A stretch of DNA of 64,000 nt from Glandiceps talaboti. Taxonomy: Eukaryota > Hemichordata > Enteropneusta > Spengelidae. A program made the translations under genes and the position numbers. Positions 198 through 26,134 of this stretch are shown in pieces; position 1 is the first letter of the stretch; each line of letters begins with the position of its first letter. Location: the NCBI RefSeq assembly GCF_964340395.1, contig NC_135551.1, positions 26,764,380 through 26,828,379 on the forward strand. Direction: 5' to 3'. The notes under the pieces are model-generated. The model was not told where the DNA came from. It made no database searches and saw only the letters and a program-made list of their open reading frames with translations.

Positions 198-2990
198 CTC
201 TTGTTACTGGAGACATACTGTCCTCAGTATGGTGATTTCGATCGGTTTTCTATGAAAGAGAAAGACACATGATTAGAAGTAAATTTTATCAACACAGTTT
301 TGTAATATATATTTATGTAAAGCCATAACAGTTGCCCGGGTCACAAAATGGCCGACTTTAGGTTTAGGTTTTGCTTCCATAGTTTTTATGCTCTATAACA
401 CCAACAACATGAATAATGTCTTTCCCAGGGATGAGTTGCGGTGCAGTGATTATGCATGCGCATTCTGTATGTTATGCACATTCTCCATGCGGAGGGTGCT
501 ATCTACAATATCATCGTGAGGCAGCCCAGGCACCCGGTCACAAATGAATCTACCCTGTGCGAGCTTATGGGCTTTGCCTAGCTATGATATTATTTATTCC
601 ATGAAGTGCACTGTTTGACCCAAGACTGAACTATGGACTGTATTATGTATGAACTGGAATATCTGTACTCTGCATATATATTGAAAAAAAACACCTGTTA
701 CATGTATACATGTTCAGTCTATTGAACATTTGACTGTTTACATTTTTGGTATTTGACTCACAATCAGCTCATAGGCTCTTAGCCTTCTTAGCTGTAATTG
801 ATATGACAAGGCTCCAAAGTTGAATAAGTTATACAAGAATGCTATTTTATCACAAAACTAGATGTAAACTGAATCCTTCCATAAGGTCAAAAGCCTAGAT
901 TTTTTATCCTAACAGTACACTTCTCAGCTATATAGCTCTCATACATGAGGTATCCCTTGATTGGCAAATTAATTATACAAACTATATGAAATTTCAAGCT
1001 TGCATACTTAAGATATTGCCAGAAACTTTTCTTGTCAGGGATGGATCTAGCTTTCTTGATGGATTCACACGTAGTAGCAATTCTTTGTAGCCCCTTTGTT
1101 TGAGTGCAAGTTTCTGTGATACTTGACAAAAATCTTCTCGTCAGAACAAATTCTGCGATATCGTAGGGCCTGTCCCCATAGACTACCAGGGAATCGATTT
1201 AAACATGTGTCTAGGGTGGCAGGATTGTGTCCATGCAGCGGTAGGTGTGTCTGTCCATAGGTTTGTGGAACACTGGTTTTAATGGTGTTGTCCTCAAGTA
1301 CCAGTTTGGTGTCAATTAAGAAATAAGAGAGTTCCATTTTATTGAATACCTAAAGCATGTGAATTGTTAGTCTAGAGTCCTGACAGGGACCGTATTACGT
1401 GTGTACTTCATTACTATCCCAGTCTAGTCAATCCCCTTGCTCAAGGCGTTAAATGTTATTCAATCCCATGGTGAGTGAAGCATAAAACGGCGCATGTCAG
1501 TAGTACATACTAGTATCCATCACAAATTGACAGGCTGTCATAATCGTTCTCATGTTTCAAGAATCTAGGACTGATATGATATGTAAATGTCCAACCAGGA
1601 CTCCACCTCCAGTCTGTTTAAACTATAATCACTGGGGACATGACAATGTCATCATGTTCATATGAACGCCATAGGGGAGCACAGATATCTGTGCTCTAGC
1701 AATGGGATTGACTAGACTGGGATAGTGATGAAGTACACACGTAATATGGTCCCTGTCAGGACTCTAGACTAGTGAATTATAGGCTGGGGTGGATGGAGTT
1801 GCATATTTGGTGAAAGTGTTGGGAGGTGAGCGATGCTATGGTCCCAAAGAAATCTTATGTCGTCAATGAATCTCTTCCATTGTTCCGGAGTATATGGTGC
1901 TTTGTCAAGGATGATATTCTCTATTTTGCCCATGGCTATAATGTTGGTGTATGTAGGTGCAAATTTACTTCCCATAGCAGTGCTGTCAGTTTTGAGGAAA
2001 AATTTGCCAGTGAAGATAAAGAAGTTCTTAGTAAGAATGAATTCCAGCATCTCTGCGACAAGTTTTGGTCGTGGATTATTAACCCATCTCATTGTTCACC
2101 ATCATTTCTGTGACAACAGGAATTCCAAGGTCATGGGGTATATTGGTGTAGAGGGACACTACATCCAACGTTACCATGGTATTTGCAGTTATCTGGGCAT
2201 CCAGTAGACTGTTAAGGTGGTGTGTGGTATGATGGTAACATAGCAACTAGAGGTTTAATATGGTACTCCAAGTATTGAAATAGTGGTGTCGTGTGGTTAA
2301 TGACTGGCATTGCGGTATAAATGTTCTTTATAAGGAATAATGTCTTTATGGATTTTTGGGAGGCTGTAGAAATGTCCAATGTTATCCAACCATTTCTTTT
2401 CCATTTGTTGACATTGTGTTCGAGTTCTTGGAGGTATTCTTCTGTAGGGTCACAGTCAAGTTCCTTGTAGTAATGTTCATCATTCAACTGTTTTTCGCAT
2501 TGTTCTACATACCAGTCTTTGTCCATAACAACAACTAATTTACTGCAAATCATTATTTATGTAAATACCTCATGAATGAAAATGCTGTTGTACATGTATA
2601 AGAGACACATATATTGTGTCAATTTGAAATGAATTTGAACTTGTCCTTAGGAAACACACTAAATCCAAGCTGAGTTTTGCTTTGATTCCGTACCCAAAGC
2701 ATTGTTTTTGATAAATTTAAAAGTATGCTGTACAAATGGTTTATCAATTGAAAACTAATTTCATATCAAGTTGATACATGTTCAAGTGGCTGAAAGTCCA
2801 CATTTTTGTATCTAGTGTATAACAAACAAGCAGCCACAGGTGATTGTTTTGAGTATACAAAGCTTTTTGAGTTCTCAATAAAATATGGATCACAATTCAA
2901 AAGTGACCAATGACTTACTGTTTTATGCTGTTGGCATAGTCCTGATTCATCAGCATGATTAGAACATTCAGGAATCTTACATTTCGCCAT
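198..2990 (-). CDS. Gene C: candidate 5' part of an unrecognised gene, possible third paralogue of genes A and B (partial)
   Basis: Two candidate exons are visible on the minus strand. Exon 1 (2990-2919, 72 nt) starts with an ATG in good context (ACCATGG). It encodes 24 residues with a compact Cys/His pattern (CKIPEC then CQQH) and ends at a strong GTAAGT donor in phase 0. Exon 2 (249-198, 52 nt) follows a TTTCATAG acceptor, stays open in phase and ends at a GTCAGT donor in phase 1. The 0-then-1 phase order equals that of genes A and B, which lie on the same strand. The 2.7 kb intron holds a Penelope-like relic and a MITE-like element. Any cysteine-rich C-terminal exon would lie left of the window. 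The link to A and B rests on phases, strand and a shared promoter 13-mer, not on protein similarity. Exon 2 is the weaker call. It could also be a dead duplicate. Confidence 0.32.
250..1029. other. Gene-free stretch
   Basis: I see no coding signal, RNA gene or clear repeat here. If the gene C model is right, this is intronic DNA. Confidence 0.5.
1030..2560 (-). mobile_element. Decayed Penelope-like retroelement (reverse transcriptase)
   Basis: Minus-strand translation gives Penelope-like reverse transcriptase blocks in the correct order. They are a VVVMDKDWY block near 2535, TLDVVSLYTNIP near 2180-2145, a TAMGSKFAPTYTN block near 1980-1940, the catalytic FIDDI near 1865-1850, and a RFPGSLWGQALRYRRIC block near 1190-1140. 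The order and the FIDDI/AMGSKFAP motifs match Penelope-like elements rather than LINEs. The ORF is broken by stops and by a MITE-like insertion at 1369-1773. No GIY-YIG endonuclease is recognisable downstream. It is a dead, truncated copy. Confidence 0.75.
1369..1773. mobile_element. MITE-like element with ~65 bp terminal inverted repeats (copy 1)
   Basis: The left end begins GTCTAGAGTCCTGACAGGG and the right end is its inverted match (CCCTGTCAGGACTCTAGAC). Similarity extends about 65 bp inward. Both ends are flanked by TA, consistent with a TA target-site duplication. It is inserted inside the Penelope-like reverse transcriptase. A second, more diverged copy is at 22346-22719. Confidence 0.7.
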
Positions 2991-3071
2991 GGTTTGACAC
3001 AACGAATATCAGGATGAGCCAAACACTGAATCAGATATGTTCTTTGCTTCTGTGTTTGAGGTACATATACA

Positions 3072-3101
3072 TCATGTGATTATATTCAATGCTCCTATTG
3101 G
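3072..3101 (-). promoter_or_regulatory. Candidate core promoter of gene C
   Basis: On the minus strand a CCAAT box (3101-3097) is followed by TATAATCACATGA (3084-3072), about 80 nt upstream of the gene C ATG. The same 13-mer occurs upstream of gene A at 9453-9441. Promoter function is inferred. Confidence 0.3.
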
Positions 3102-3223
3102 TCAGTACAATTGCTCTACTTCCTTAATTGCGCAGTATTCTCAGAATTATCTTGACATCTAGATATAAACACATTCATCTTGACAGCTTAATATATGCGG
3201 CCCATGGTGGGCTGAGATAATCA

Positions 3224-4860
3224 GTGCCCCCACCAAACCATCCAAAAAATGACATCATCTTGAAACCTTGCCAAAATTGTTACAATACCACTGGTGCTAT
3301 GTTTTACAATGCCGTCAAGAGTTTGTATGAAAGTCCAATCTCATGTGTAAATATCAATGGTTCATTCTCACCATGGTTTTCTACTAATTCTGGTGTTAGA
3401 CAAGGAGATCCTCTGTCTCCTACCCTATTTGCTGTGTATTTGAATGATCTTGCCAAGAAATTCATTCATTCATTTTTCATTCAGTTTTTTTATTGCCAAT
3501 TTGAAAGTCAATATATACATGTCAATGATGACCACATATGACAAAAAAAGGAGAAACAAAATGGCAATTTAGAGTCTAAAAACTAGCTTTCTGCTAATCA
3601 AGTTTGACTCCACCGCTAATGGAAATATCAAATAAGTTATCCTTATGGGCTTAATTAAATGAACGTTTAGATTATAAACATAACACAGACACAAAACTAA
3701 TTATGAAAAGATAAAGAACCGTAATGGAAAATTTACACATCACAAATGATATGTTCTTTAATTAAGCGCTTTCCTAAATTCATATTTTGACATCAGATTT
3801 TTCATATGTATTGGAAGACTATTCCAAGAATCTTCATCTGGGTATCCCAGCAGTGACTAAGAAGTTAGTATTCTGTTATATGTTGATGATATCGCCATTT
3901 TAGCTGAAAGCAAGGAAAACCTCCAAAAAAGTGTTGACTGTCTAGAAAATTTGTGCAAAAGATGGTGTATGGTTATCAATCAAAACAAAACACAAATTGT
4001 TCATTTCAGAAATCAAAATACAGATAGATCTAATTATAAGTTCAGGTATGCAAGTCAAAACCTAAATACAGTTTCAAAGTACAAATACCTTGGGGTTATT
4101 CTGGATGAATTTCTAAAATTTGAGATGACCTCTGACCTCTTATGAAATGCTGCAGGCCTTAGGGTGATTTCAGAAATACATACTAGATTTAGGGACTTTT
4201 GTGATAACACTTACACCACACTTTTTAATTCATGTGTTGTACCAATTCTGGACTACTGTGCTGGTATATGGGGTTTGAGTAATTTCAAAAACTGCGATTC
4301 TATTCAAAATAGGACCATTAGTTATTTTATGGGCCGGGGTAAATGAATTTGCACCTAAGTTGTCTTTGAATGGAGATATGGGATGGGACAGGTTAGACCA
4401 GAAAAGGTTAGATTTTGGAATAGGTTGCTGAAGATGCCAGATAATAGGATCACAAAATCTGTTTTGGTGGGACTTCACCTTATTTAGTTAATAAAAAAAC
4501 TGGTGTCATGATGTATTTAAGATTTTCTCTGAATTAGGGTAACAACATAAATTCGCCAACTTGGAACCAATAACTACTGATGAAGCAAAATTATTTTTAA
4601 AAAATGTTCATGCCAACCAATGGGAATCAGAAATAATTCAAAACCCAGGTTGAGTACATATATACTTTCAAAAAAAACTTGCAGAAAAGAAAATTATCTA
4701 TTAGGGGGAAATGTCCATGCAAAACGCTCCATAATGGCTCAATTTACACTGGGCATACTCCCACTTGAAATAGAAACAGGCAGATTTTGTGGTCTTGAAG
4801 TCGAAAACAGAAAATGTGACTTCTGTCAAAACTCACCAGAGGATGAAGTACACTTTATGT
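3224..4860 (+). mobile_element. Non-LTR retrotransposon (LINE) fragment, interrupted
   Basis: Plus-strand frames give LINE reverse transcriptase motifs. GVRQGDPLSPTLFAVYLNDL lies at ~3391-3450, the YVDDIAIL catalytic box at ~3880-3905, and SKYKYLGVILDEFLKF at ~4075-4120. After these come the post-RT blocks SCVVPILDYCAGIWG (~4230) and a C-terminal CDFCQ...H zinc-knuckle-like end (~4818-4855). About 400 bp of unrelated A/T-rich DNA (~3460-3865) separates the palm motifs, and stops and frameshifts are present. The copy is 5'-truncated and inactive. I do not assign a clade. Confidence 0.75.
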
Positions 4861-5373
4861 TTTATTTGTTTTTATTTCTTTTACTTTAATCAACTGAACA
4901 TATACAATAAACTACAACATTTAATGATAAAATTTCCCTGATACCGCAAACTGTTTACATGAGGCTGTAGGAAAATCTTTATTTACAATTAAAACATATG
5001 TGATATTTATTTATTTACTTATTTAATTTGATATTCTTTGTGTCCTATAAGCCAGAGGGCTGGATATGGCTCTTTTTTTGTGTGTAAATTTTTATTTAAA
5101 TATTGCATAATTTAGAAAGTCCACACAGGACACCTTAATAAATAATAAACACAGAACATAACATAACATAACATGTACAGAACTCCATGCTGTGCCAGTG
5201 TGATTGCTCAAGGCTATTTGTACTCATACATGCAATGTTTTCTGCTGTATTTTCTGTTATACTTTCATTCACATGGCTGCAGAGAACACTGTAAGCACTT
5301 GTGCAGATACTCCGAGTACGCCACACTTATACTCATGCGTCATGGGGTTCTGTCATAATATTTACTGCCATGC
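4861..5373. other. Intergenic / 3' flank of gene A
   Basis: A T-rich stretch follows the LINE end. A minus-strand AATAAA (5095-5090), about 280 nt beyond the gene A stop, is a plausible polyadenylation signal. Nothing else is recognisable. Confidence 0.35.
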
Positions 5374-7673
5374 TTAATCATAGAGCTTTGCTAATGTATG
5401 TCGGACACAAGTTTCAAAGCTGTCAGACAGAGGAGTTTCTTTTCTTATTTGATTTTCAATTGCCCCAACAAATGTGCAATCAAAACATTGACAGGGGCCT
5501 GCAAGGGTACTGGGATGTTCACAATATTTCTTTATTGACTTTGGAAGAGACAAAAGGTTGTCTGGTAGATTCTCAATCACCTTTCGGTAATGTGGGATAT
5601 TGGCTACTTGTGTACTGTATCTAAGGACCAATTTACAATCCTGACATGTACAATTGGATTGTCGTGTGCTTGCATGTGGCATAGATAAACTCTGACTACT
5701 TTGCAACCCTCCCCCTCTAACACCACTAGCATAATATTGGGGTACATAGTTAGGAGGACTGCCAGCTGGACTCCCTCTTAGATCTAGATTCTGTGGTGTA
5801 GCCATCATAGGTATACCAGAACCCTTTTCGCAGGTACACAACGATTGAAGACTACATTGAGATGTGAATGCTGGCTGGGTAGTATGTACTGCACAATTTC
5901 TTGTTGTCTCTTTGTTAACTGGTGATGTTACATCTGACATAAAGCCATAACCTGAAGGAATCAGTGTATCTGAAATATAATAATGATGATGATGATAACT
6001 TTTTATTAGCACAGTATACAGCAGTTAGTTAACAATTAGTTAATTTTCAATCCCAGGTCAGTGTCCTGGCATTTCCAATGTGTATGAAACCAACATTTTC
6101 ATAAATACAGTCCCCAAAGCAGATCTAATTTAAAACATACGATGATAATTTTCAAAACAGTTTGACAAAATTGGCCCTAGCAACCATGACTACACTCTTA
6201 GCAACAACCAAATGCCAGTATATTTTGCTAAAGTAACAACATCTGGTAGGCAAGTGAGTAGACATTCAGAAAATATATGCAAATATCCCTAGCAACAAGA
6301 CCATGCCCATAGCAACAGCTAAATGATTAATTATATGATAAAGATAACAGGGCTGGATAGGCAACTGGATAAACATTTGGCAAATTAACACCTATACCTA
6401 GCATTGATCAGCATGTGGATAAACATTTAAAAATAAAACTGTACAGTTGTGCTACAATTTCATTGGCGCTATCTTTTCACTTCTGTCATCAGGGTCCTGT
6501 TCTCACTATCCATTGTAACATCATTGTCCTTCATCTATGAAGGGTAATGTTATAGAGAAAATTGGATTAACCAAGTATCATCAAAATCTGGGGTTTTTTG
6601 TCACTTACCATCATGATGTTGCCATGGTTTTTGTTGCATAGATACTTGTTGTGGAATGACCTGGGCAGAGTCTTTATCTTGAGGTTTGTCACTACATGCT
6701 ACAGGTAGTGCCATGTGGTCATCATCTTTAGTCTTTGTACGTTTAGAATGATCCAGTGAGTAGCATTTACCTGCTATATATAATATAAGAACAAAAAAAT
6801 ATTTTAAAAACCACATGACTATTTAACATTTCAGATGTCAACATCACCGTTGCAGTTAGCCAATATATGCTTTTTTGCCCAACATTTTTTCGCTGTTCAC
6901 AATGTTTCACCTTTACAATGAATCAACTGACCACTGTGGCTCGATAGAGCTGGTACAGCTATTTGAAATGTGGTTGTTAATGTTATAGAGCCATGGGAGT
7001 TCCCCTGTGATAAATTAGAAATATATTTTTAAAAATCACATTGATTTGATATTACTGACAGTTATATATATTTTTGTATAATTTTTGGGACATATTTTTT
7101 AATGGCTACAAACCTTTTTCATGGCTATAGTAATTCTCCTCAAATTTAAATAGTTCTCCAGTCGTACTGTCTGGTCCAGGAAGTTGCTGGCATTCTGCTG
7201 TTGCCTAAACAAAAAAAGAATGTTCACTTAATGGGATATTATGTGTAATGTTCAGTGATCTGTTTGAGGTGTTAGTTATTATTTGCTATTACACAATAGT
7301 TAATTATATCTGTAGATAACAAGGTTAACAGATAAAGATGAAGAGCTCAGATCATGTTTGTCTCAAGGATGTTGTCTCAGCATTATTCACAAGCACTCCC
7401 ATTAGCAAGGCTTCAGTGTTGTTCCAAAAGAAACCAGTCTAAGAGATGATACCAGGCTGAACACCATTAGAACCCATTTGATATAGTGAACCTTCTTGGT
7501 TTATATGTCTGAAGTGCACATATTTCCTATAACAGGGAAAATTCATATATGAAGCAAATACATGGAGCCACTATGGATTAACCAGTGGCCAATATTGTCT
7601 GCAATCTTTACATGGAGGACTTTGAACAGAAAAGATTTGAGGACAGCCAAACAACCCCCCCCCCCCCCTCACA

Positions 7674-7755
<82 letters not shown>

Positions 7756-9295
7756 GTGGCAATGTATATGTTGACTGTACTCATGATCAAAATGCTTATA
7801 AGGCCTATTCACAGAAAGTCACAGACCATCTGAAGTCATTTCATTGGCAGTGACATGAAATGGTCCACTGTGTCTAAGGTTGAGATTTTCATCCCTGACA
7901 TTAACAAGATCTCCACTGAGATTAAAACAGCAAGGATGACTGACCAAGTGTCCCAGAACATTTGTTCAGTCATGCGGGACAACCACAGACAATTGTATAT
8001 AATCTGTAGTCATTGAATTGAGTGTAAATATCAGTAGGTATATAATATGTGTTTCAAAGTGGTGATTAAGTTAAGTATTAACCCCAGTATGTGTCATAGC
8101 TCTGACTTTGTGTGCAGAATGTGTATAGACCTATTAGTGGAAATTAGACATGAAGTTTTTGTCTGTTTCTCAGTGCTTACCCCAGAGACTTATTGTCGGC
8201 TTTCAAATCTAGAGACCTTCCATGAATAAATGATGACTAGATTTGAAAACCATTGACAAGTTTCTAGGTTAGTTGGTGCTAGACTGTGAAACCATAAATC
8301 CAGACTGCATAGTTATCTGTTTAGTTTACTAATAAAGGTACTTGACCATTAACCCTATAAATCAATACATCACATACTAAAAGAACCATGCCAACATACA
8401 ATGACAGGCAATCAAAGTTGTGACATGTTGATGTAAGCTGTTGAATGGCCATTGATTAATTATACTATCAGTAGGGTGGTATATCTGATAGTTAGTTTTT
8501 CTCAAGTGGCCACACACTATTTTGATAACAGAGTGATTATATTCACACAACAGAAGCACTGTTTTCACCCACTTGTGTAAACTACTGCATGTACATCAAA
8601 CAATATTAGTTTTAGCTTATGTCGGTCCTAGTAAGTTGAAACCTCACTTGCCACTGTAGTATTAGCCAATTTAGATACTTCACATCCATTCAAATACATA
8701 AAGGGGACCTAGATGCATGTATTATGTGATATAAAAGGTAACCTATTAACCTTTAGTCATGCCTAGGTTCTAGCATTGAAAGCCCTTCCTTGAATATGCT
8801 TCAAACCCTGACATAAATTCAACAAAATGAATCGTATGTACCTTTGTGGACATACTTTTGTTAATATTTGTGAAGTTTAGAACATGTGGCAACTGAGATA
8901 TTTGATGGAATAAGCAACATTTATCATTCCTTGAAATGAGAGTTAAGTTTCTGAACTTCTAAAAATAGATATGACGGAGAATTGTGAACATCAAAATGGC
9001 AGTTACAGCCAAAAGAAGTGAAGAGCAGTTGACCACCACAGGTTTGATTTCATTACCAGTGAAATATGTGATGTACTATAGTTAGCTTCAAAAGTTTCCA
9101 AAAGGTAGTAAAACTAACTGAGATTTTGTTGGTATTTCACACAAAAAAAACTTGGTGACTGAACACTGAGATACCTAGACAGGTTAAAGTGTGGAAGCAA
9201 AAACTATGAAATACCTTGTTGTCAACACTTGTTACAGTCTGAGTATTCCCAGTATCATCTTGATTTCCTGAAGCAGGTCGTGCTCTTTTTGACAT
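5374..9295 (-). CDS. Gene A: unrecognised four-exon gene, 309-residue protein with a cysteine-rich C-terminal domain
   Basis: Exons are 9295-9215 (81 nt, phase 0), 7204-7114 (91 nt, phase 1), 6770-6609 (162 nt, phase 1) and 5969-5374 (596 nt, TAA stop). They join in one frame to give 309 codons plus stop. Three junctions have good consensus, but the exon 2 donor (GTTTGT) is weak. The first three exons encode a low-complexity, basic/acidic region (SKRAR at the N-terminus, SKRTKTKDDD around residue 70). The last ~93 residues form a domain with CTCQDC, a LLSLPKSIKKY helix-like block, PCQCFDCTFV and a final TCVRHT. The cysteine and histidine spacing suggests metal binding, which is inference. I recognise no known family. 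Gene B is a paralogue with the same intron phases. No signal peptide or membrane segment is seen, so a nuclear or cytosolic protein is likely. Intron 3 carries a dispersed CCTAGCAAC-type repeat. Confidence 0.62.
6130..6540. repeat. Dispersed repeat with CCTAGCAAC / CCATAGCAACAG blocks (copy in gene A intron 3)
   Basis: Repeated CTAGCAAC..ATGAC and AGCAACAGC..AAATGAT blocks end in TTCATTGGCGCTATCTTTTC. Related blocks in the same order are found at 25500-25710 (intron 1 of gene B) and 40880-40960. This is probably an old mobile element. Confidence 0.45.
7655..7752. repeat. Poly-C tract and (CA)n microsatellite
   Basis: A run of 14 C (7655-7668) is followed by about 40 CA units. It lies in intron 1 of gene A. 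All reading frames through it are artefacts. Confidence 0.95.
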
Positions 9296-9402
9296 CTTTG
9301 ATAACTTTTGAAGTATTGTACGTTGTCACTCTGTCACCTTCGAGATTTACTCTGCTTTGTGATCAATTTTGTAGTTAACCATACCCATCATGCATCAAGC
9401 TG

Positions 9403-9460
9403 TCACATGATGTGTCATGTGATGTGTCTTGTGATTTCAGTCATGTGATTATAAATACCA
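9403..9460 (-). promoter_or_regulatory. Candidate promoter of gene A: TATA-like box with repeated TCATGTGA/TCACATGA motifs
   Basis: Read on the minus strand, TATTTATAA (9457-9449) runs directly into TCACATGA (9448-9441). Two further TCATGTGA/TCACATGA octamers sit at 9422-9415 and 9410-9403. This octamer is the E-box variant known as the M-box, bound by bHLH-zip factors in other animals. The 13-mer TATAATCACATGA is identical to one upstream of gene C. The distance to the gene A ATG is about 150 nt. Factor binding is not shown by sequence alone. Confidence 0.4.
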
Positions 9461-11490
9461 TACGGAACTGAATTCTTGGAAGGTTTGACTCAAAGAAATT
9501 CTGAGAAAGCCAGTCTACGTATGACTTGAAACTTTGTGTAAATTTACTGTAACAGATAAACGTTATTAATGTCAGGCATACATAGCCATGAATCTATGAT
9601 TACACAAAGTACTTGATATGACACAGTACTATACTGCACCAGGAACAAGACAGTATGGATTCTGGGTCACAAGTTGTAAACATGTCATAACTTACACAGG
9701 ATCAAATGTTAAACTGAGGTTCATCAATCCTGCATCTCAAGACCTGAATTTCTATTGCAATATTATTGGAAGTAAATCAATCAATCAATCAATCAATCAG
9801 AAAATTTATAGAGCACCTGTATATCCAATATGAAGTAAAGATCTGAGGCACTGTACAGATAAATAGTGAAAACTTCTCTGCTTTGTAATCAACTGTTCTA
9901 ACAATGCCAGAAGACAGGAATGTCATAGAAGACATACATCCATATTAACATTGTAAAGGAGTGAGGTTTAATGTATGCATTTTCACTTGAGTAAAAAGCT
10001 TATAAAGTCAGCTTGAGGAATTCTTGTCAGCTCCTGATGAACCTTTATTTTCACAAGGAAAGCAATAAAATATGTAGCCCTTGAAGCAATTTTAAAGACA
10101 AGTTATAGGATAGCCAAAGGAAAAAAAAGAACTGTTCCTGGTAGGACAGTTTGTCTAAAATGGTGCAACGACGCAATTTTTTTTTTTTTATTCACAAGAA
10201 ACCTATCACTCAGTCTACTATTCATGGCAGTTACTGGTCTTTTTATTTAGTTCTTTAGAGCAAGTGTGTATGTTGGGCAGATGTCATTTGCTTGTTTATG
10301 ATTGGCTGTGCAGTTGTATTCACTGATTCAGAAGTAGGGGGGGGGGGGATTTTTGTGTTTCCCCGGATCTGCAGACTGCGTGGGCTGGACAAATACCAAA
10401 AAAAAGACTAATGCAAGGGTATTAAAGTGATGCGCACACTGACCAGAAAGAATTCTCTTCATTTTTTTGGCCTAATGAGATATAAATTTGTAGTAACTGT
10501 AAGGTCTTCCTGTCATAAAATTCTTACAACTTAAACTGTGTGGCCATCCGTATCAAGACATGATGATCACCAATAATACCATTGGCCTTTCTATGTGAGT
10601 TTATTTAGAAAATTTATTATATATTAGACATGAAACTGATCAAAATTGTTTACAAAACTAAGGCCAAATGAAAAAAATTGCATTTTGTTCTGATAACACC
10701 CAATTTCAAAATAGGCTGGGTAGGTAGGATTTTTTTTTTTTTTTTTTTGGTCTGGTTCAGGTTATGTTTTCCATTTTTTATCCAGAGCCCTTCCATGTGG
10801 TCTTTGTGTTATGGGTCGTTTCTGTCAGATGTACGGCTAGGGCATATTGGCAATACAGTTTTATAATGTTTCTCACTATTTCTTATGCGACTTTAATTTT
10901 TTTAATTTTTTGATCATTTTTTTGAACTACCTAAAATTAGGGAGACTGGAGGTCACTAAAACAAGACTCTTAGAGAATAGACATCCAAACTCCAGTATAT
11001 CAGAAGTGTTCCAGCATATCCAATCACTAGGACATTCAGAATCTTCAAAACTATGCACACATACTTTTATTGTAATGACACAAGATACATTTTAAAACTG
11101 CAGAAAATATTCTTTTTATTTCAAAGATATGGCATACCATATGTTATTGCTTTTAATTATTTTTATCACAAAACTTAAAAGAGAAAATCGATTCTGGTAG
11201 CAATATAAAAAAAAATTGCAGCAAAACGTTTTGTGGCTAATAAAGCCCTCGCGACACTTTTATACAGTCATGTAATATAGTTGAAAAAAAGATGAATATT
11301 CAGAAATGAAATAGTATTTACCTTGACTGAAAGCACATGATAAAAGCAGTGCTTCTTTCTTTACAGTGTCATTGCATACCGAATTTGAGAATGAGCTAAA
11401 CTCGATTAGCAAAAAGCTAAAAAAAAATTTGCCTCCAAAATTGCCAATGTCTTTAAATATTTAGTTGACATATTTGATATATTTTTTTTC
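9461..11490. other. Intergenic stretch without a gene
   Basis: It contains a short (AATC)n tract at 9777-9800 next to TTTATAGAGCACCTG, the usual look of a LINE or SINE tail. There are also a poly-G run near 10337-10346 and poly-T runs near 10179 and 10731. I see no coding or RNA gene. Confidence 0.45.
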
Positions 11491-11495
11491 TTTGG

Positions 11496-15272: not shown

Positions 15273-15536
15273 ATAGATAACATGACAGTTATGCAAAAAC
15301 AATACATGAACAATTGTTGTGAAATTCATGATGTGATAAAATTAGATCGAGAGGTGGAAAATGGGTCAACACAAAAAGCTATCGTTCAACATAAGCTGCA
15401 ACAGTTGATTCGTTTTATGAGCAATAATAAAACGTACAGAAGTGTTTCAAAAAAAGATGTATGCGTATATGAGGTATGGTTGAAAAAGATAATGAAGCGT
15501 GAAAAATACAAAAAAATAAGTTGTGACTTGAAATAA
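15270..15536 (+). CDS. Short unrecognised ORF inside the transposon-like element
   Basis: An 88-codon ORF rich in Lys and Gln lies between the R1 half-repeat and the CXC-domain remnant on the same strand. It may be an upstream piece of the same element-encoded protein, separated by frameshifts. I see no motif that identifies it. Confidence 0.25.
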   Translation: MIDNMTVMQKQYMNNCCEIHDVIKLDREVENGSTQKAIVQHKLQQLIRFMSNNKTYRSVSKKDVCVYEVWLKKIMKREKYKKISCDLK

Positions 15537-15612
15537 TAAGGTATCGGATACAAGTAAGAACACGGTTTGAGGAGGAAAATATGCCAAACCCTACCGCATT
15601 AAGTATCATTGG

Positions 15613-16161
15613 TTGAGGTCTTGCTTTGTATCTAAAATATGGAATCAGTCGCATCAAAGTACGATAGTATTACCAGATTATAATAGTCACGGTTTTATTG
15701 CTAATGGTAATCATTTAAGTATCTTGTGGGATTCAGAAGAAAATATAGCAATTGTTAAAGATACTGTTGACAAATACACAAAGGGTTGTAAATGTAAAGG
15801 GGTGCAAAATCAAACAATGTGATTGTGTTAAAAAGGTCTTAAATGTGGGCCAGGATGTTATTGTGAAAACTGCGAAAATTGTGAAAGCAACGAATATACA
15901 CCTAGGGGAGAGAATGATATGGAAGTGGATGACATCGTGTTAACAGAGGGTGAAAAAATACTTGACATTATTGATGAGCTAGAAACTCTTGTACAGTTTG
16001 AAGAAGACTATAATTTACCAGAAGAATGTGTCTTTGAGAGGGAATATGATGGGGATGAGGGCGAGGACGGAGATTGGGATGATAATGATTTTCAGTTTCA
16101 AGAAAAATCAAACATAACACCTAATAAAAAAAGATGTGTGGTTCCGATTATTAAAATTTAG
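15613..16161 (+). pseudogene. Frameshifted C-terminal part of an element-encoded protein with a CXC-type cysteine-rich domain
   Basis: Three overlapping frames read as one protein. They give a WDSEENIAIVKDTVDKYTKG stretch, then KGCKCKG in one frame and CKIKQCDCVKK and CGPGCYCENCENC after shifts. An acidic tail follows (GDEGEDGDWDDND) and a stop at 16159. The spacing C-x-C-x(n)-C-x3-C-x-C ... CGPGCxCxxC is that of tesmin/TSO1-like CXC domains, which bind zinc and DNA. At least two frameshifts (near 15800 and 15837) inactivate it. The position inside inverted termini suggests transposon origin. Confidence 0.5.
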
Positions 16162-16839
16162 CAAAGGTGGGGTACATGTGTAGGTAGAATTTTTAGTCTA
16201 TTTTATTATATATATTTTTTTTCATGTGTGAGTGTCTAGTTTAGGGTTTCCATTGTTTTCCAAATGGTCTGTGTGTTGTTTATTTCTTCCCATCAGATAT
16301 ACAGCCGTTTCAAATTGGAAGAACAGTTCTATGTATTGTCTTCCTAGGTTGGTGTCAGTGTCCACATCCATTATTTCTCGTGAGAATTCACATCTTATTT
16401 TTTCTCGAATACGTAAAAAAAGTTTAGGGTTGACTAAGCAGTGAAAAAACTAGGTGGGGTTGGATAATCGGAACCAAACATTATTTCTTAGGCCTGAGTA
16501 AAGAGTTATCAACTTAATAGCTTCTGTTTTGAAAATGGTGTTTGTATTGTTACTTTCTGATGTTTTCAAGTTTTCTAGCTTGGTCTTGCTGTTCACTTTT
16601 GGTATTTAAGTTACGTGTTACCTGTACATGAAAGTACACATCAATATAATAGTAATAATAATGATACTTCAAAAACACCAAACATAATAGTAAAAGAAAT
16701 ATAAATGTAAAAAACCTAAAAAATTAACCTGAAAGACTTTGAATTGGATTTACAAAAACTAAGAAATGATGTAAGCTTATAACGCAATGTTCTCGCTATG
16801 TATGAAAGCGAGACAGTCTGGTACAACAGCCCTGGATTT

Positions 16840-16925
16840 AGCTCTGGATGTATGCGCTACGATGTTCGACACGTCTTTCCAGATGGAAAGACGTGTCGAA
16901 CATCGTAGCGCATACATCCAGAGCT
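16840..16925. repeat. Perfect hairpin with 41-bp arms and a 4-nt loop
   Basis: 16840-16880 is the exact reverse complement of 16885-16925, with AGAT as the loop. I found no mismatch in either arm. Confidence 0.95.
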
Positions 16926-17896
16926 ACCCTGGATTATGATGGCAGTATCGTATATTTAGGGAAAAAACAAACTCTTAGGGTGTCTTTATTTCTGTGGTCA
17001 TGGAAAAACTCGTAAGTAACCAGCGTAAAAACAGTCATTTGTTCCATATACACTTGCGTTATCCATTCCCTGCATAGCGCAGAATTCAATAGACGTATTG
17101 GTCTCTGCACGGCGTCACTTAATCATGCCGCAAATACATGCAATGTACCGTACGGCCTTGAAATTTGGACCAGCTACTATCGATGGTATAGACAACAGTT
17201 TGTGAAAGTTTCCCCTTGGCTCAAGCCCTATAAGGCCCTTTAAGTAAGTGTTTTCGGCTAGAGCTAGGTTTGCATGCGTGGTTCGTTGCATGCGCTTCGG
17301 CACGGAAATTCTGCCATCGTAAATGAATTGCTTGCTCTCTAGTCAAATACTTTAAAGAATCTTAGTAAATGTTTTATTGTCAATCGAAATGGCTATATTT
17401 CAAAGAAAATTTTCATTCTGTTTGAATAAACGGCGTAGTTTCTGAGACCGTACGCCGGTTCCCGTAACTGACACACTTCCGCATTCAGCGAGGTAGCGAA
17501 AACGAGGCGCTTAGACAATATAAAATATGCTAATTAGGTACCCTCCGTTCAAGCTGAGTACAGCATGAACACAGGCAAAAAAACATCCCTGATCAATAAT
17601 CATACAAAATTCTCCTTGCCCCTTGCCCAAGCCTTCAAATCACTTGCCCGGGGCAAGTAAAAGGCCATTATTTCGAGCCCTGACACATATTTGATGTATA
17701 AGACACTTTGTACCATATTCCAGTTATTAAAATGTAAATGATAATTATTTATAGAGTTGGCCACTGTAGGAGGAGTGCCATGCACATGGAAGCAGCAGCT
17801 CCTTGAATGAAAGTTAGTAAATGACATACTTGGCCAGTTATTGATGATCTTTGTTGGATCTTTTATGGATGTAAAGTATATAACAGGAATATGGTA

Positions 17897-19130
17897 TATT
17901 TATTATTATTATTATAGACTTTAATTCGGACAACGACGTCCATATAAATATATGTTACAGAAAAGCTACATGACTGATGTTCTTAAATATAAGAATCTTA
18001 ACATATAAATTAAACAAAAAGTAACTTGTCCCATAATTCCACCATATGGGATCTGAAATACAGTAAATCACATGTACATCTAATTATGCTGTTACAACTT
18101 ACTGAAAGTCGTCTTCTCAAACTAAACACTTGCTTTCTCATCAGGGCATCAAACGTATACATCCTATTCGATACGAACATAGAGCTTGCACTACTTCGTT
18201 TATCATAACCTAACAATAGGCGTGCAGCATTGTTATATGCAACTTTCAATTTTCTCATTATCCTTTCCGTATGATTGAGCCATAGTGGCCCTCCATACAA
18301 CTGGTAGCAGCATGCTTTAAACAAAATACACTTCACATTAAAGGTACATTTTGAGAATTTTCTCATAAGCATATTAGCAGATATATAAACAGATCTGATC
18401 TGCCGTTCAATGTCATCATTGTCTCGAAAGTTAACTCCATTCAAGTATATGGAAGGAATACGGCGAATCTTAGTTTGAGCTAGAGTAACACACATACAAT
18501 TGGTCTTCTTGCTGTTAAATAAAATGTCATGGGTCTCACCATAGGTACTGCATATATTAATCAGTTTCTGTGTTCCCTAGGCAGAAGGACTTATAAGACA
18601 AATATCATCTGCGTACATTAAATGATTTATGAAAATACCTCCAATTAATATTACAACCTGTTTTTGAGTTTCACAACAGAACACTTAAATAATCAACGTA
18701 AACATTAAAAAGCTTTGGGGATAAAATCCCACCCTGTTTTACACCATTAGTGACTGTAAAGCCACCAGAAGTATGTGCACCCCATCGAATAACGATGTGT
18801 TGTGTCCTATACCAAGTAACAAGAAATCTAACAAAAAACACAGGGACAGTACTTTGAATCAGCTTTTTAAAGAGGGTCCAATGGTTGACTCTGCCAAATG
18901 CTTTAGATGCATCCATAAAAGTAACGAATACATTACTTCCGTGATTTCTGTAATAATTGACAGTTTCCTTTAGCACAAAAACACACATATCAGTCGAGTG
19001 ACCTGATTTGAATCCAAACTGACGGTGAGTTGTCCCGAGATAAGATTCAATATGTTTCAGCAAGACTAATTCAAGGAGCTTTGAAGTTACAGTAGAAAGA
19101 GCAATCGGACGATAATTGAATTGAATTGAA
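17897..19130 (-). mobile_element. LINE fragment (CR1/L2-like reverse transcriptase), minus strand
   Basis: Minus-strand frames give YRPIALSTVTSKLLE at ~19110, a HRQFGFKSGHSTD block at ~19030, FVTFMDASKAFGRVNH at ~18910, NGVKQGGILSPKLFNVYVDY at ~18740, and the MYADDICLIS catalytic box at ~18615. They continue through the thumb to the ELWDKLLFV end at 18010. The 3' end reaches an (ATA)n tail at ~17890-17915. The 5' end is truncated at an (ATTGA)n tract near 19115. Frameshifts and stops separate the two ORF pieces (19140-18671 and 18495-18010). In the A block an Asp is replaced by Gly (AFGRVNH). Confidence 0.8.
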
Positions 19131-19610
19131 TTGAAATTTATTCCACCAGAAGAGAAAAATATATACACAAACTCTGAAAATATGGTACAATTATGTGATG
19201 TTGTAAATAAGAGTTCAAAGGTCAACTCTTCTAGGCCTTGTACATCTCAAACTACAACTAATGATGGTCAGAATGAATCAAATTATCAGTGGAGAGAATG
19301 GGATGAGTTCTTTAAAAAGTATATGAAGCGTCTCAGAGGTATCAGTGCATATCATCACTTTAGATTTACTAAAGATGACCCTGGTGCTGTGTATGTAAAG
19401 AAATCAATCTCTGATCCTGAGGAGCGTGTGTATTTAGTAAAAAGGGGGGTCACTTGGCCACCAACTGATGAGAGTTTACCACCAGTGTTGCCAGCTGGTG
19501 GACTCTCCAGACAGCGATACCATGATCTGCAGACCAAAGTATTGCGGTATGTAAGGGAACCATACAGGGGTAGTTTCTTCCCCATTACAGCTACACAGCT
19601 GGAGAAATAA
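19131..19610 (+). CDS. Unrecognised ORF, C-terminal fragment, probably mobile-element derived
   Basis: This is an open frame of 159 codons. Its second half is well composed: YHHFRFTKDDPGAVYVKK, then SDPEERVYLVKRG, LPPVLPAGGLSRQRYHDLQ and a short tail to a TAA stop. The first ~10 residues come from the flanking (ATTGA)n tract, so the annotated start is unlikely to be genuine. The YHHFRF...PGxVxV pattern and the LPPVL.AGLS block remind me of the tails of transposon-encoded proteins in marine invertebrates. I cannot name the family. It sits between a LINE and a minisatellite, with no promoter or splice signal that I can see. Confidence 0.35.
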   Translation: MKFIPPEEKNIYTNSENMVQLCDVVNKSSKVNSSRPCTSQTTTNDGQNESNYQWREWDEFFKKYMKRLRGISAYHHFRFTKDDPGAVYVKKSISDPEERVYLVKRGVTWPPTDESLPPVLPAGGLSRQRYHDLQTKVLRYVREPYRGSFFPITATQLEK

Positions 19611-19849
19611 AATAGAAATAATACACACTGAACAAGTCTGTATCTAAATTATTGTATCCATATTATGTCTTAATCTTTGTTGCAGCTCATAATAGCAAAC
19701 TAGGCATGTTTTACACTGAATGAAAATTTGAAGTCTTCAAGCTCTGAGTATTTTCAATACACAAATAGATTTGAAACCTAAAAAAAATCAATAATTTAGA
19801 AAAGTGTATATTTCTATTTGTAGCACAAACATAGATGGAAGTCTACAAT

Positions 19850-20420
19850 ATGTAAATACAATCTGGTCAGTATTTCTATGTGTACAAGTGTAGACTGAAA
19901 TGCAGAGTAATAGTCTGGCCAGTGAGTATTTCTATTGTGTACAAATGTAGACTTATGTCTACAATATCTATAATGAATAGATTCATGTCAGTGAGTATTT
20001 CTATTGTGTACAAATGTAGACTTATGTCTACAATATCTATAATGAATAGATTCATGTCAGTGAGTATTTCTATTGTGTACAAATGTAGACTTATGTCTAC
20101 AATATCTATATCAATAGATTCATGTCAGTGAGTATTTCTATTGTGTACAAATGTAGACTTATGTCTACAATATCTATAATGAATAGATTCATGTCAGTGA
20201 GTATTTCTATTGTGTACAAATGTAGACTTATGTCTACAATATCTATAATGAATAGATTCATGTCAGTGAGTATTTCTATTGTGTACAAATGTAGACTTAT
20301 GTCTACAGTATCTAGTATATATAGATTGTGGTTAATGAGTATTTCTTTTGTGTATAAATATACGCTTGAAGTCTACAATATCTATAGTGAATAGAATCTG
20401 CACTGGCCAGTGTGTATTAC
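19850..20420. repeat. 69-bp minisatellite with an internal palindrome
   Basis: Starts of GTGAGTATTT fall at 19922, 19991, 20060, 20128, 20197 and 20266, giving a 69-bp period (one 68-bp unit), with diverged units on both sides. Each unit contains TGTAGACTTATGTCTACA, a 7-bp-arm inverted repeat. A period divisible by 3 explains the repeated open frames on both strands. Confidence 0.95.
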
Positions 20421-20465
20421 TATATATACAAAGGTAGACTGGTGTCTACATTATCCTAGAGGAGG

Positions 20466-20571
20466 AGGCGATCAGGCTAAAAAATGTAAACATGTACTAC
20501 GAAGGTCAATTCAAGCTAAATAACGATGGTAAGATAGCGATGCACGATTAGCCGACATCTACATCAGATTG
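20466..20571 (+). repeat. R1 repeat, single half (copy 2)
   Basis: It starts GAGGCGATCAGGCTAAAAAA and ends near ACATCAGATTG. It is more diverged than the copies at 15150 and 49426. Confidence 0.7.
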
Positions 20572-20689
20572 ACTGGATAGGACACATACTAAAGTATACA
20601 GGTTAACCATTGTACTGTTATTAGGTATCGCTTCAAAGTAAAGTTTTTAATAATACGTGTTTTATATTTTTTATATTTGTTTTCATTTG

Positions 20690-20800
20690 AAATTTGAGGT
20701 TTTTGGGGGTTTTTTTGTTAATTTTAGTGTTGGTTTTTTTTGGGTTTTTTTTTTGTTTGTTTGTTTTTTTGTGTGTGTTTTTTTTTTTTACTTTGTCAAA
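20690..20800. repeat. Low-complexity T/G-rich tract 3' of gene B
   Basis: Runs of T are interrupted by G (GGTTTTTGGGGG, TTTGTTTGTTTG). Nothing else is visible. Confidence 0.85.
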
Positions 20801-20867
20801 TAATGTCCCTGAAGTTGTGTTGTTATTAGATCATTGACATATGGAAGTCAAGTATGGATCTATGGAT

Positions 20868-23800
20868 TTATTCATAGAAACTTGCTACTGTGTGTCTCAA
20901 GCAAGTATCAAAGCTGTCAGAATTTGGATACTTTGCTTTCATGTGATTTCCAACTGAATCAACAAATGTACAATCAAAGCAATTCCATTGACATGGTTTA
21001 CCCGTATTTTTAGTATGGTCAAAATACTTCTTTACTGACTTTTGAAAAGACAAAAGCCCAGCTGGATACTTTTTGGTACCCAACATAACACTTTCCCCTA
21101 CTACAAAGGCACAATCTGGACATTTGCATTTCATTGGACCAATTCCATTAAGCGATTGAAAAAACCCTCCTCCTCCTGCTGCTCCTGCTGCTGGAACTTC
21201 TCCAATCTCATTGAGCATGCTGGTTTGAGGGATATTACCAACACGAATGTGTTGACTGAGACCATTAACTGCTGTCATTACTACAGGTAGACCATTTTGA
21301 TTGTACGGAGAAGGAACTGCATTTGGTTGTTGTGTGGTATTGCCTTGTGTTGCATCGATGTCCATTCCATCATTTTGATTGGGCAGTACATTCACTTCAT
21401 ACCAACTATTACCATCTGGTTTGTAGTTTTGATAACTAGAGCAAGCAGCCATTTCTCCTATTTGTGTCTGCCGTAAAAAGGAGTTAATCCCACTTGCGCT
21501 ATCTTGGCCAGGTAAAACATTCGGGTGTCTGAGATTTTCCACATAATCAGGACCACTTGCACCTGCAAATGTATATCTTGATTTATTAACATATATGTAT
21601 ATGATAGATTTGTGATACATGATATATTTATTAGTATATTATAGCATTACCAATTCCAGTGAATTTTGTGACGTCATCGCTATACATTATTACTGATAAT
21701 GTACTCCGTTATTGGGCATCGCGGCCCCGGAACGAGCATAACAATGCAAGCTTATGTACGTATGTGTGTCGCTATGATTAGTATTCAGCTTCCGGGCCGA
21801 ACATGGCAGACGATGTTCAGCGCTGTGTATATTATACGTTGTTTTGCGTTTCTCGGTCTACAAATTCACTGGAATTGGCAAAACTATAAAATAATAACAA
21901 TGTACGCCCTCCCAGTCCATAATGGACTCAAGCAAACTTTGCGCTCCATAATGGGCTCGGCTGTCGCCTCGCCCATTATGTCGTTCAAAGTTTGCTTTCG
22001 TCCATTATGGGCTGGGAGGGCGTACATTATTGTTTAAGTATATATTTTGTTATGATTTCATCCCCAAACTTAATTCACTCCTAATTTAGATAGTTTTCAT
22101 GTATATACCACAGAGGTGCCACTGGGCTGTCTGCCCATGCAGCAACAACTCAACTGGTGACAAATATATAATAATAATAATAATCTTTATTTATACTGGA
22201 TAGTTCTTTAAGTGTATAAACACTTGTCTCATAAGAAGTCCAGTGAGGGCCATCCCTCATGGGTTCAGTGTTAATGCAGGAGGAAACCGGAGTACCCGGG
22301 GAAAACCTGCGTTGTTCAGTAGAGTGTACGGTAAAGTCAAACTTAGTCTAGTTCCCGACGGACTGTATTCCGAACTAATTTATCGTCATACTATACCGTC
22401 TGGTCAATCACATTACTCTCGCATAGAATTCTGTACTCCCCTCACCGACAGCAAACAGCGTTCATATAAACATGATGATGTCGTCGTGTCCCCACATGAT
22501 TTTAGGACATTTGCATATCATAGTCCTAGATCCTAGACACATAAGAACGATGATGAAAGCCTGTCAATTTGTGATGGATTACTACTGACATGCGTTGTTT
22601 GTGCTTTGACCACCATGGGGTTGAACAACAATTAATGCCTTGAATAACGGGATTAACTAGACGGAATACTATGAAGATAACGTAGTATGGAATACAGTCT
22701 GTCAGGAACTAGACTAAATTTAGTCACACCATGAATGGGTTTGAACCCCAACCATAGTGGTAAGAGCCAAGTGTAGGTGTAGGAATAATAGTGTAGTAGT
22801 TTGAGTGTAGCATAGGAATCGTATACTTACTGTCAGGTTGGGCTAGTACTGGACTCACAACAGCAATACTTCTGGGTGGATTCTCATCACCTTTTGGTGG
22901 TTCATTACACATGAGGGGTCTTGCAACACTCTTTTGGGTGGTTTGATCTAAAAGAAAGAACATTGACAGTGAGTGATTTATAAAGATTTAATTGTTTTAC
23001 ACAGTTTTGAATAAATTAATTTTTGTTTAAAAATGAACTTTCAAAGTTGGCCGCTACATATATATATAACAGCTCTCCTCCCAAAATTTGTGATAGTGTA
23101 GAACATAAATTTAAATATAGATATACAAACAAGATGTTTACATAATAACCATACAGTTGGAAAGTTATATTATCCATTAGTAACATTCTGAAAAACATGT
23201 GGACTAGTTGATAAAACCAGCGACAGACAAACATTTACAAGCAGAACTTGTTACAAACAGGGAAAGTGAATTGGATTAATAACACTTAGCACAGCATGTT
23301 GGAACTACAGAGATGTGTATTGCATTTTTTGGTTTGACATGAACAATTTATGGCCTCTCTACAGGAAAATACCAGGTAAACTTTAAATTTGGCTTGGACT
23401 CCATCACCCCAGAGGCCACTCAATTGTTAAACCAACAATAAGATTCACCAAAATTGGTAAAAAACTTGTAAAGCTTCTAGGGGAGACCCCCTAGGACCCC
23501 CCATAAGTGGTAGACATGTCCAAGCCTCAAATCAAAGTTCTTCCTTCCACCTGTTACTGTCAAGATGCTATGAAATTTTATTTCAAAAATGTTTCAACCA
23601 TATGTAGTTGCTTTTTACAATTGTTAGAACAACCCCCCCCCCCCCCTTCACACACACTCACACAAGAGGTGGACATATTCCAATCTCAAAGCTCTTTCCT
23701 CTACAGCTTACTGTCAGATGCTATAAAACTTTATTCACGGGGGTCAGTGACTTTTTGTCGGCCCAATGGGAAAAAAAAACACTGACATCCCCCCAAGCTG

Positions 23801-26123
23801 GAGAAACTGACTGGTCTATCTGAATGTTTGAGCTCACCAATCAAGTCCGATTTGTATTTTCAGTGTGTCATCATACCATGGCATAAAAACTGTCAACAAT
23901 GTTTATTTAATTGAAAATCAAACATGTATGAAATATGTAGTTTTCTAAATATAATCTGTGTGTGATAGAACAGCATCTTTTTACTCTCTGTATTTCCATG
24001 TGCAAAAACCAAACAGAAAATTGTGGCAACAAATGTAGGTGTTCAACATTAGCGTAAAAAAAAAATTCTGATTATCTCAAAGAAGCAAAGAAAAAAAAAG
24101 TTGTCAACATAGACGAAGGAGAAAAAAATAATTCTCAGGCAAGCATGTGGGTAAAAAAATAATGACTCTCCACCAATCTTCCAAGCCCCCCAGGATATCA
24201 AATGGTCTACCCCTAAGTGGAATTAATCCAATTCATAGGTTTACTTTAGGTTTGTAACGAGTCCCACTTGTAAATGCTTGCCTGTCACTGGCTGCAATTA
24301 ACATGTGATAAAGTACAAAAAATCAATAAATTAAAATGCTATAGCATGACTTTATAGGTGCATTATACAAAGTTGTAACATCCAACCTTTGACTTTTAGA
24401 TACTTACTAATGTCATCTTCACAAAGATATATCCCACCATTTATAGCACCATTTTCAGCAGCATTATTAACAATGCCTTGTTGATATGAAGGATTTCTTC
24501 CATTCAGTTCCTGCAACTACAAAAAAAATCATTTTAAACAAATAAAGAGGGCACGGTTTAATATAAGTTTTACTCCTCTCTGACTCATACCCATTGTTTC
24601 AACTGTGCTCTGAGTTTCATTTAGCGGACACTTTTCCATTTAATGGGACACTTTTTTTCCCAAAGAAAGTGTGTGTTTAATCCATGAAATCAATGAAACT
24701 CCACATTTCTTGTTAACCATTTCTATGGCATGTGCTACTGTGCCTTATTCTGCACCTGTCATTCTGTAAAGACGTGAAAAAACACTGCTACCTTGACAGG
24801 TCTCAAACACAGTACCTCTACTTCTGTACCTATCTATCCAAAGACATGCTTGCTCTATAGCCACTTCACTACAAAGTGACTTGTGCAGTAAGTGGGTTTT
24901 CATAAAGAATTTGTTAATTAACAGGACAATGTATACATGTATGTGCACCAGCGTTTGTAACAGAGCTACAGGAGAAAATGCTGAGATGTTCGTATTGGGT
25001 AAAAAATGGAAAAACTTTGAATTTGGACTCTAACTTTTTTGCAGTACGAGTTATGACCAGATTAATGGATTTCAAAGTGAACTGAAGTAAACATCAAATA
25101 TTTGGTTGAGATATGTGTGATGGGATTTCTACATGATGTATAATAGTGAATGTTGTTATTAACATGATAATACTAATAGGTAAGAGTACTCGGTTATGTA
25201 ACAGGGCTGTAGATAACAAGATTAACTTTCTGGTAAAAAACCTAAAAACTCATCGAATTTGAAGTGTAACTTTGTTAAAGTACTGAGCGTGTACTGCTAT
25301 GTGTCGTCACTCAGTGGGATGAGTGGTCAGCTTTGACAATAATCTCATATCAATTACTTCTAATGTTGCCTGGCTCATAAAAGGATGTGTTCCAAGCAAA
25401 GTGTTCATCTTATTTGGTACTCTAGTATATATTGCAAACTACACAGGGAATGGGGCTGAAACTTGTTGGGCATGTTTCTTGAAGTGTTGTTCTGGAGTTA
25501 TTCAGAACATATTGACGAAACTGGTCCTAGCAACCATGACAATAACAACAGCTAAATGATGGTTTATATTTCAAAGATGGAAACTGGAAAGGGTAGGCAA
25601 GTAAATAAAAATTCCAAAAATGTATGCCTAGCAATAAGACCACGACAATAGCAACAGCCAAATACATTTGTGCTGCAACTCCATTGGCACTATTTTCATC
25701 CTCAAAATGGATAGTTAAGAGTTAGAGGGTTTGGAAATGCCAAACATTAGTCTGCAGTTAATATGTAGTTTAATTTAGTACAAATAACCAAGATTTGTAA
25801 AAATTCCAACTTTAATGTTTAAAAGTAATGTAAAATACATTTCAGGACATTAAAGGTTTAATTAATGACAGTACACATGAACATTTGCAATGTTTTAGAT
25901 GGTGTTTATTTGATCTGACAGGTACCTATTTTTATCTAGTCGTTCATTGTGACGTCCAAACACAATGTACAAATATCACCGAATAGATACTGTAGAACAA
26001 AGCCATGCACCATACTTCCTCATTTGTAGACATGCAGTATAGAATTAGTACATTCAATATTTGATTTACCTGTAATGAACTCTCTCCACATAGGACATTT
26101 CCAATGCCTCTTTCAGTCGCCAT
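20868..26123 (-). CDS. Gene B: unrecognised four-exon gene, 322-residue protein with a cysteine-rich C-terminal domain; paralogue of gene A
   Basis: Exons are 26123-26070 (54 nt, phase 0), 24510-24408 (103 nt, phase 1), 22947-22831 (117 nt, phase 1) and 21562-20868 (695 nt, TAA stop). All junctions have good consensus (donors GTAAAT, GTAAGT, GTAAGT). They join in one frame to give 322 residues. An acceptor at 26134-26133 just before the ATG implies a 5' UTR intron. Residues ~18-235 are low-complexity (Gln/Asn/Pro-rich, with an AAGAAGGGG run). The last ~87 residues carry KCKCPDC, LLSFQKSVKKYFDH, PCQWNCFDCTFV and SDSFDTCLRHT. These are the same landmarks as gene A, with two extra residues between PCQ and CFDC. 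No membrane segment is seen. Function is unknown. The conserved Cys/His set suggests zinc binding. AATAAA overlaps the stop codon. It lies head-to-head with the ATM exons. Confidence 0.68.
21894..22035. mobile_element. MITE-like palindrome, ~68 bp arms
   Basis: The left arm (AATAACAATGTACGCCCTCC...) and the right arm (...GGAGGGCGTACATTATTG) are inverted matches with a handful of differences and almost no loop. It lies in intron 3 of gene B. Confidence 0.75.
22165..22320. repeat. Retroelement tail-like repeat with GGAGGAAACCGGAGTACCC
   Basis: An (ATA)n tract followed by CTTTATTTATACTGG leads into AGGAGGAAACCGGAGTACCC and GGGGAAAACCTGCG. I know this motif from LINE/SINE 3' ends in many invertebrate genomes. 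It is in intron 3 of gene B. Confidence 0.5.
22346..22719. mobile_element. MITE-like element with ~65 bp terminal inverted repeats (copy 2)
   Basis: The termini are GTCTAGTTCCCGACGGACTG and its inverted counterpart ending CAGGAACTAGAC, flanked by TA on both sides. Its minus strand aligns with 1369-1600 over CATGTCAGTAGTA, ATCCATCACAAATTGACAGG and TCTAGGACT blocks. It is therefore the same family as copy 1. It lies in intron 3 of gene B. Confidence 0.7.
23388..24232. repeat. Dispersed repeat D2 (copy 1)
   Basis: The sequence from GGCTTGGACTCCATCACCCC to CCAAGCCCCCCAGGATATCA is repeated, with small changes, at 43140-44576. It includes a CTTCTAGGGGAGACCCCCTA block, a poly-C/(CA) patch and a tail ending near CAAATGGTCTACCCCT. 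It is in intron 2 of gene B. Confidence 0.85.
25500..25710. repeat. Dispersed CCTAGCAAC-type repeat (copy in gene B intron 1)
   Basis: It shares the blocks GGTCCTAGCAACCATGAC, CCTAGCAATAAGACC, AGCAACAGC and CTCCATTGGCACTATTTTC with the repeat in gene A intron 3. Confidence 0.45.
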
Positions 26124-26134
26124 TTTGTTCACCT

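Follow-up and report, generated by a model that had tools for sequence, protein, structure and literature searches.

A tandem array of three paralogous genes, referred to here as A, B and C, spans 29 kb on a single strand of the genome of the acorn worm Glandiceps talaboti, within and immediately to the left of a 64,000-nucleotide stretch of contig NC_135551.1 (the window; C4:26764380-26828379, where C4 is that contig). The three genes are almost certainly real paralogues sharing a C-terminal domain of about 90 residues built on a Cys/His scaffold and, as far as searched, they look like a small undescribed protein family. All three lie complete and antisense in one intron of ATM, a setting absent from the original prediction made on this DNA. 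The exons and domains are as follows (positions in the window, all on the minus strand).

9215..9295: gene A exon 1, starting with the ATG at 9295; same residues in the NCBI protein
7114..7204: gene A exon 2; splice borders and NCBI protein
6609..6773: gene A exon 3 in the NCBI version; use of the neighbouring acceptor would give 6770
5374..5969: gene A exon 4, including the stop; identical to the C-terminal part of LOC144432590
5377..5655: gene A C-terminal two-unit Cys/His domain; three-way alignment, retrieves B and C from the whole genome
26070..26123: gene B exon 1, ATG at 26123; GT donor, phase 0
24408..24510 (alternative acceptor: 24516): gene B exon 2; GT/AG borders, phases 0 and 1
22831..22947: gene B exon 3; GT/AG borders, phase 1 on both sides
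20868..21562: gene B exon 4, including the stop, with a low-complexity stretch followed by the C-terminal domain; uninterrupted frame with an AG acceptor, paralogue of A and C
20871..21131: gene B C-terminal two-unit Cys/His domain; alignment with A (43% identity) and C (35%), four helices in the best AlphaFold2 model
2919..2990: gene C exon 1, ATG at 2990; GTAAGT donor, phase 0
198..249: gene C exon 2, same gene as exon 1, which continues to the left of the window
-1767..-1913 (C4:26762612-26762466): gene C exon 3, outside the window
-2243..-2826 (C4:26762136-26761553): gene C exon 4 with the domain, outside the window

Gene structure and copy number

Genes A and B were assembled from sequence alone, ahead of database matches, exon 1 of A being taken from among the listed candidates. 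Each has four exons, as originally described, with GT..AG borders at 6/6 introns and phases 0,1,1 in both genes, and the model of gene A is equal to an independent NCBI protein, LOC144432590 of G. talaboti (310 aa, uncharacterized), at 310/310 residues. Exon 3 of gene A has two adjacent AG acceptors, the upstream one being used in the NCBI protein. Since gene A corresponds to an annotated, uncharacterised protein, the description of these genes as “unrecognised” was only partly correct. The LOC144432590 entry, which is gene A itself, carries no name, precomputed Pfam domain or function, and no entry for B or C was found next to it.

Gene C had been mentioned as a possible third member, and this proved to be the case: the two exons to the left of the window hold a diverged copy of the domain, and the gene has four exons with GT..AG borders and the same phases, 0,1,1, an arrangement found in 3/3 family members. 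The predicted proteins have 310 (A), 322–324 (B) and 284 residues (C). Exon 1 of gene C (2919-2990) also encodes a small C-x4-C-x9-C-x2-H motif, absent from A and B, that is possibly a second metal site.

The copies were counted in the Glandiceps genome (590 Mb, 47 contigs). Within the window, a tblastn search with A retrieved B at E 1.6e-19. Against the whole genome, the A domain matched B at E 9.9e-16 and C, 2.5 kb to the left of the window, at E 6.7e-4. Searches with the A, C and B domains (7, 3 and 4 candidates scored, respectively) led to three places, all in the cluster, and no further convincing copy was found in this genome with any of the three as query. A fourth match, obtained with the B domain on another contig (C15), had an E value of 0.055 and contained a stop; it is chance-like and was not counted as a copy. 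The E values of the tblastn and genome searches exclude chance similarity of the ends of A and B, and the common stretch of about 90 residues reported for these two genes is therefore conserved far beyond chance.

The C-terminal Cys/His domain

The series of conserved blocks first written for this domain, from CxCxxC to SDSFxTCxRHT, holds for A and B; when C is included in the alignment, 26 columns stay invariant. Most of these make up the Cys/His scaffold, and certain Asp, Phe-Val, Ser-Asp and Arg-His-Thr positions are invariant as well. In all three members, the domain has two Cys-rich units that each close with a conserved His. In unit 1, C-x-C-x2-C is followed by a His 29–40 residues past the last Cys (3/3), and in unit 2 a Cys precedes C-x2-C, with the His exactly 26 residues past the last Cys (3/3). 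The C-x-C-x2-C spacing occurs in five of the six units, unit 2 of B having C-x3-C-x2-C, and a C-x-D-C-x-x-V form is common to both units. When unit 1 was compared with unit 2, seven of the nine comparisons, which are not independent, were reached by no more than 22 of 1000 shuffles; by this statistical measure, the domain itself looks internally duplicated. The zinc binding suggested at the outset would fit this invariant scaffold of twice three Cys and one His, as for two zinc sites.

Position of the genes within ATM

ATM runs along the plus strand of the window, and the intron containing the array is defined by the following two features.

1..27831, plus strand, starting 3404 bases to the left of the window (C4:26760975-26792210, 31,236 bp): ATM intron containing A, B and C; joined flanking exons against human ATM
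27832..28062, plus strand: ATM exon forming the right border of that intron; match to human ATM in the PDB at E 1.3e-6, and joined match

When the exon ending at C4:26760974 was joined to that starting at 26792211, the match to human ATM was continuous over residues 2068-2188 (E 3.1e-21), and a single intron of 31,236 bp therefore holds C, A and B whole and antisense. Just to the left of gene C lie exons matching human ATM 2031-2066 and 2064-2110; FAT-region exons in the window match 2123-2188 and 2269-2320, and the FATC end lies near 39.3 kb, where Pfam FATC scores 54.3 bits. The only genome match to the N-terminal TAN domain at E <=0.001 (C4:26682172, 28.3 bits, above the cut-off) lies 82 kb to the left of the window, on the ATM strand. 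The stop of gene C is 578 bp from the intron donor, with an AATAAA about 240 bases beyond the stop, and the ATG of gene B is 1709 bp from the acceptor.

Small multi-exon genes nested antisense in introns of large genes are a general phenomenon. The present genes resemble such cases in being small, antisense and multi-exonic within an intron of a large gene, and differ from them in that all three family members found share one ATM intron. This intron provides a fixed address at which the family could be found, dated and compared in other acorn worms, echinoderms and chordates. In the literature, nothing was found on LOC144432590, on nested genes in ATM or hemichordates or on CxCxxC zinc motifs in hemichordates, and nothing about the locus, judging by titles; the one paper found for the Glandiceps talaboti genome concerns amylases.

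Divergence and constraint

Identity over the domain is 39/88 for A-B, 31/81 for A-C and 31/83 for B-C. Rates of non-synonymous (dN) and synonymous (dS) substitution, estimated by the method of Nei and Gojobori (NG86), were 0.42/0.95 for A-B, 0.65/2.60 for A-C and 0.70/2.20 for B-C; those for the pairs with C come from NG86 only and have dS values above 2, near saturation. For A-B, the lower dN points to constraint. From these identities and rates, the duplications look old and the domain appears to have been kept. The N-terminal two thirds, initially judged to be scarcely alike, gave the same picture when compared exon by exon (exon 4 minus the domain) with 1000 shuffles each: of 12 comparisons, only A-C exon 1 (28/1000) and A-B exon 4 (20/1000) fell below 50/1000.

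It could be argued that A alone is a working gene, with B and C in decay or not expressed, given that the protein collection described below returned A only and that C has lost parts of the motif. This is nevertheless unlikely: B and C have intact frames, GT-AG sites and equal phases at NG86 dS values of 0.95 (A-B) and 2.2–2.6 (pairs with C), with dN below dS, and in a neutral copy of such an age one would expect the frame to be broken.

Searches for known relatives

No Pfam family reached its cut-off with the A, B or C domain, no NCBIfam model came near its own cut-off with exon 4 of A or B, and the domains had no sequence match in the PDB. Queries with A, B and C in a collection of 5.8 billion proteins returned gene A only; the B domain as query (3 candidates) retrieved neither B nor A, and a profile of all three domains found A alone among 55 candidates, with B and C missing. 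This type of search requires several shared 5-residue words and limits protein length, and only three such words are common to the A and B core segments, so that its misses are weak evidence. In viral and prokaryote contigs, 120 and 59 pattern matches, respectively, were obtained, none of which was confirmed as a relative. Within the Pfam, NCBIfam, PDB and protein-database searches, the original view of clustered paralogues that have an uncatalogued C-terminal domain in common is supported. Animal genomes often contain orphan families restricted to a lineage.

The matches below threshold were rejected: zf-C2H2_7 (PF15269) scored 15.1 bits for the B domain against a gathering score of 27 and was not listed for A or C; Zn_ribbon_ZPR1 (12.5 bits) and NPC1_N (10.2 bits) for the A domain and IL17 (13.4 bits) for the C domain were far below the Pfam cut-offs; and the NCBIfam model hdrC_Methbact gave 11.4 bits for B against 270.

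A clear match to a Pfam or transposon domain, the outcome named at the outset as speaking against a new family, was searched for and none was found. A mobile-element origin of the domain, for example from the helical core-binding domain of a tyrosine recombinase, with subsequent domestication of the genes, is considered improbable. A strongly diverged DM (Doublesex/Mab-3) domain, or its Cys-x-Cys-x2-Cys-helix half, which would make the proteins sequence-specific transcription factors, seems slightly less probable again. The DM zinc module has a first half of the form C-x2-C-x2-H and an end of the form C-x4-C-x-C-x2-C followed by a helix. Pfam DM (PF00751) does appear on the CxCxDC segment of A and C, a helix is likewise predicted after Cys-x-Cys-x2-Cys in this family, and unit 2 of C has C-x4-C-x-C-x2-C, resembling the end of the DM module. 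However, the DM matches cover 12–14 residues at E 7.6 and 8.2, with 7.0 bits (C) and 6.8 bits (A) against a cut-off of 27, and B was not listed; C-x2-C-x2-H is absent before unit 1 in A, B and C, so that the first-half ligands are lacking, and the family has two repeated units. The TAZ zinc-finger domains of CBP/p300 are similar in concept only, as helical bundles held by sites of three Cys and one His; TAZ ligands have the order His first, then Cys, with three sites, and thus differ in both order and number, and no TAZ match was present among the Pfam results for the A, B and C domains.

Predicted fold and proposed nature of the proteins

AlphaFold2 modelling of B with A yielded helices at 13-29, 37-51, 60-75 and 81-93, with a predicted local distance difference test (pLDDT) of 77.9 and a predicted template modelling (pTM) score of 0.68 for the best of five models. 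In this model, helices 1 and 3 each begin with a Cys motif, and the His residues are located towards the ends of helices 2 and 4; the ligand geometry considered here is deduced from helix order, not coordinates. The fold prediction is moderate for B and poor for A. Fold searches gave nothing convincing in the way of a known fold, an absence that proves nothing.

A, B and C look to be old tandem duplicates of one, probably intracellular, gene, each encoding a poorly conserved, probably disordered N-terminus and the C-terminal domain. Each unit would open with three cysteines where a helix begins and continue as an antiparallel helical hairpin with the conserved His near the end of its second helix. 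Because such a hairpin would place three Cys and one His together, each unit most likely binds one zinc, and the domain would be a compact, two-zinc helical bundle, most likely serving protein interaction or DNA binding in the nucleus; each paralogue may owe its own partners to the variable N-terminus. We tentatively propose, with some doubt as to the whole, that these proteins are intracellular and probably nuclear, have disordered N-termini and act in interactions or DNA binding through a domain stabilised by zinc, the zinc, disorder, nuclear location and function all being deduced. The only pointers to a nuclear location are short basic runs in two of the proteins (KRAR in A exon 1, KRTK in A exon 3 and KRAR in C exon 3) and the absence of an evident signal peptide. 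None of the three proteins has a strongly hydrophobic N-terminus, the highest 11-residue mean hydropathy in the first 40 residues being -0.16 in A, 0.85 in B and -0.36 in C. That the cysteines form disulphides of a secreted protein rather than zinc sites is the least probable alternative, suggested by the many Cys in a small domain but countered by these N-termini, by a conserved set of three Cys and one His twice rather than paired Cys, and by the extra Cys at the RHT motif of A and B, which is Tyr in C.

Several observations weigh against the proposed picture of one family with a kept, duplicated, helical domain in nuclear proteins. The five B models are spread over pLDDT values of 77.9, 72.8, 54.9, 43.7 and 43.0, and prediction of the pair with A first reached just 46.5 at best, for which reason the helical fold is put forward as a proposal. 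By sequence alone, C is tied weakly to the others: the search with A reached it at E 6.7e-4, and that with C gave E values of 0.0025 and 0.046. Two comparisons between units, A1-B2 (189/1000) and C1-B2 (240/1000), were not significant. An A-B dN/dS ratio of 0.28–0.45 across three methods indicates moderate constraint only. B has no evident basic stretch, and neither B nor C was found as an annotated protein.

With the proposed family, an uncatalogued Cys/His domain would be added that is compact, shows signs of having duplicated internally and is of a size suited to expression and structure solving. If it is restricted to hemichordates, a new protein domain would have arisen and duplicated within an intron of a conserved gene. 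It is a very unlikely, more far-reaching idea that the family stays in this intron through co-regulation with, or regulation of, ATM, and that the domain is a new two-zinc helical fold binding DNA or chromatin; if true, an orphan gene set would be wired into the DNA-damage response from inside the gene of its master kinase.

Other features of the window

No RNA feature was found in the window at gathering score. Intron 1 of gene C contains a piece (900-2560) that resembles a Penelope-type retroelement; positions 1772-2095 had no Pfam match. Reverse-transcriptase fragments lie between the genes at 3221-4145 and 18013-19246, with RVT_1 scores of 26.1 bits at 3221-3538, below the cut-off, and 70.2 bits at 18674-19246. 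Between A and B, two plus-strand frames (15571-16161 and 19125-19607) include a Cys-rich segment and are perhaps parts of mobile elements; the second has a weak DUF7869 match (17.1 bits, below the cut-off).

Further along ATM, a 104-bp unit with the start of a kinase-region exon and its acceptor is present twice at 34728-34935, with 97% matches. As 104 is not a multiple of three, reading through both copies would shift the frame; the duplication may represent alternative exons or an assembly slip. Downstream of ATM are two solute-transporter-like genes on the plus strand. That at 50556-56103 resembles organic-cation transporters by eye only, with no Pfam match for 50556-51038 (E <=0.01), and that at 45261-48621 has one exon matching MFS_1 at 97.3 bits.
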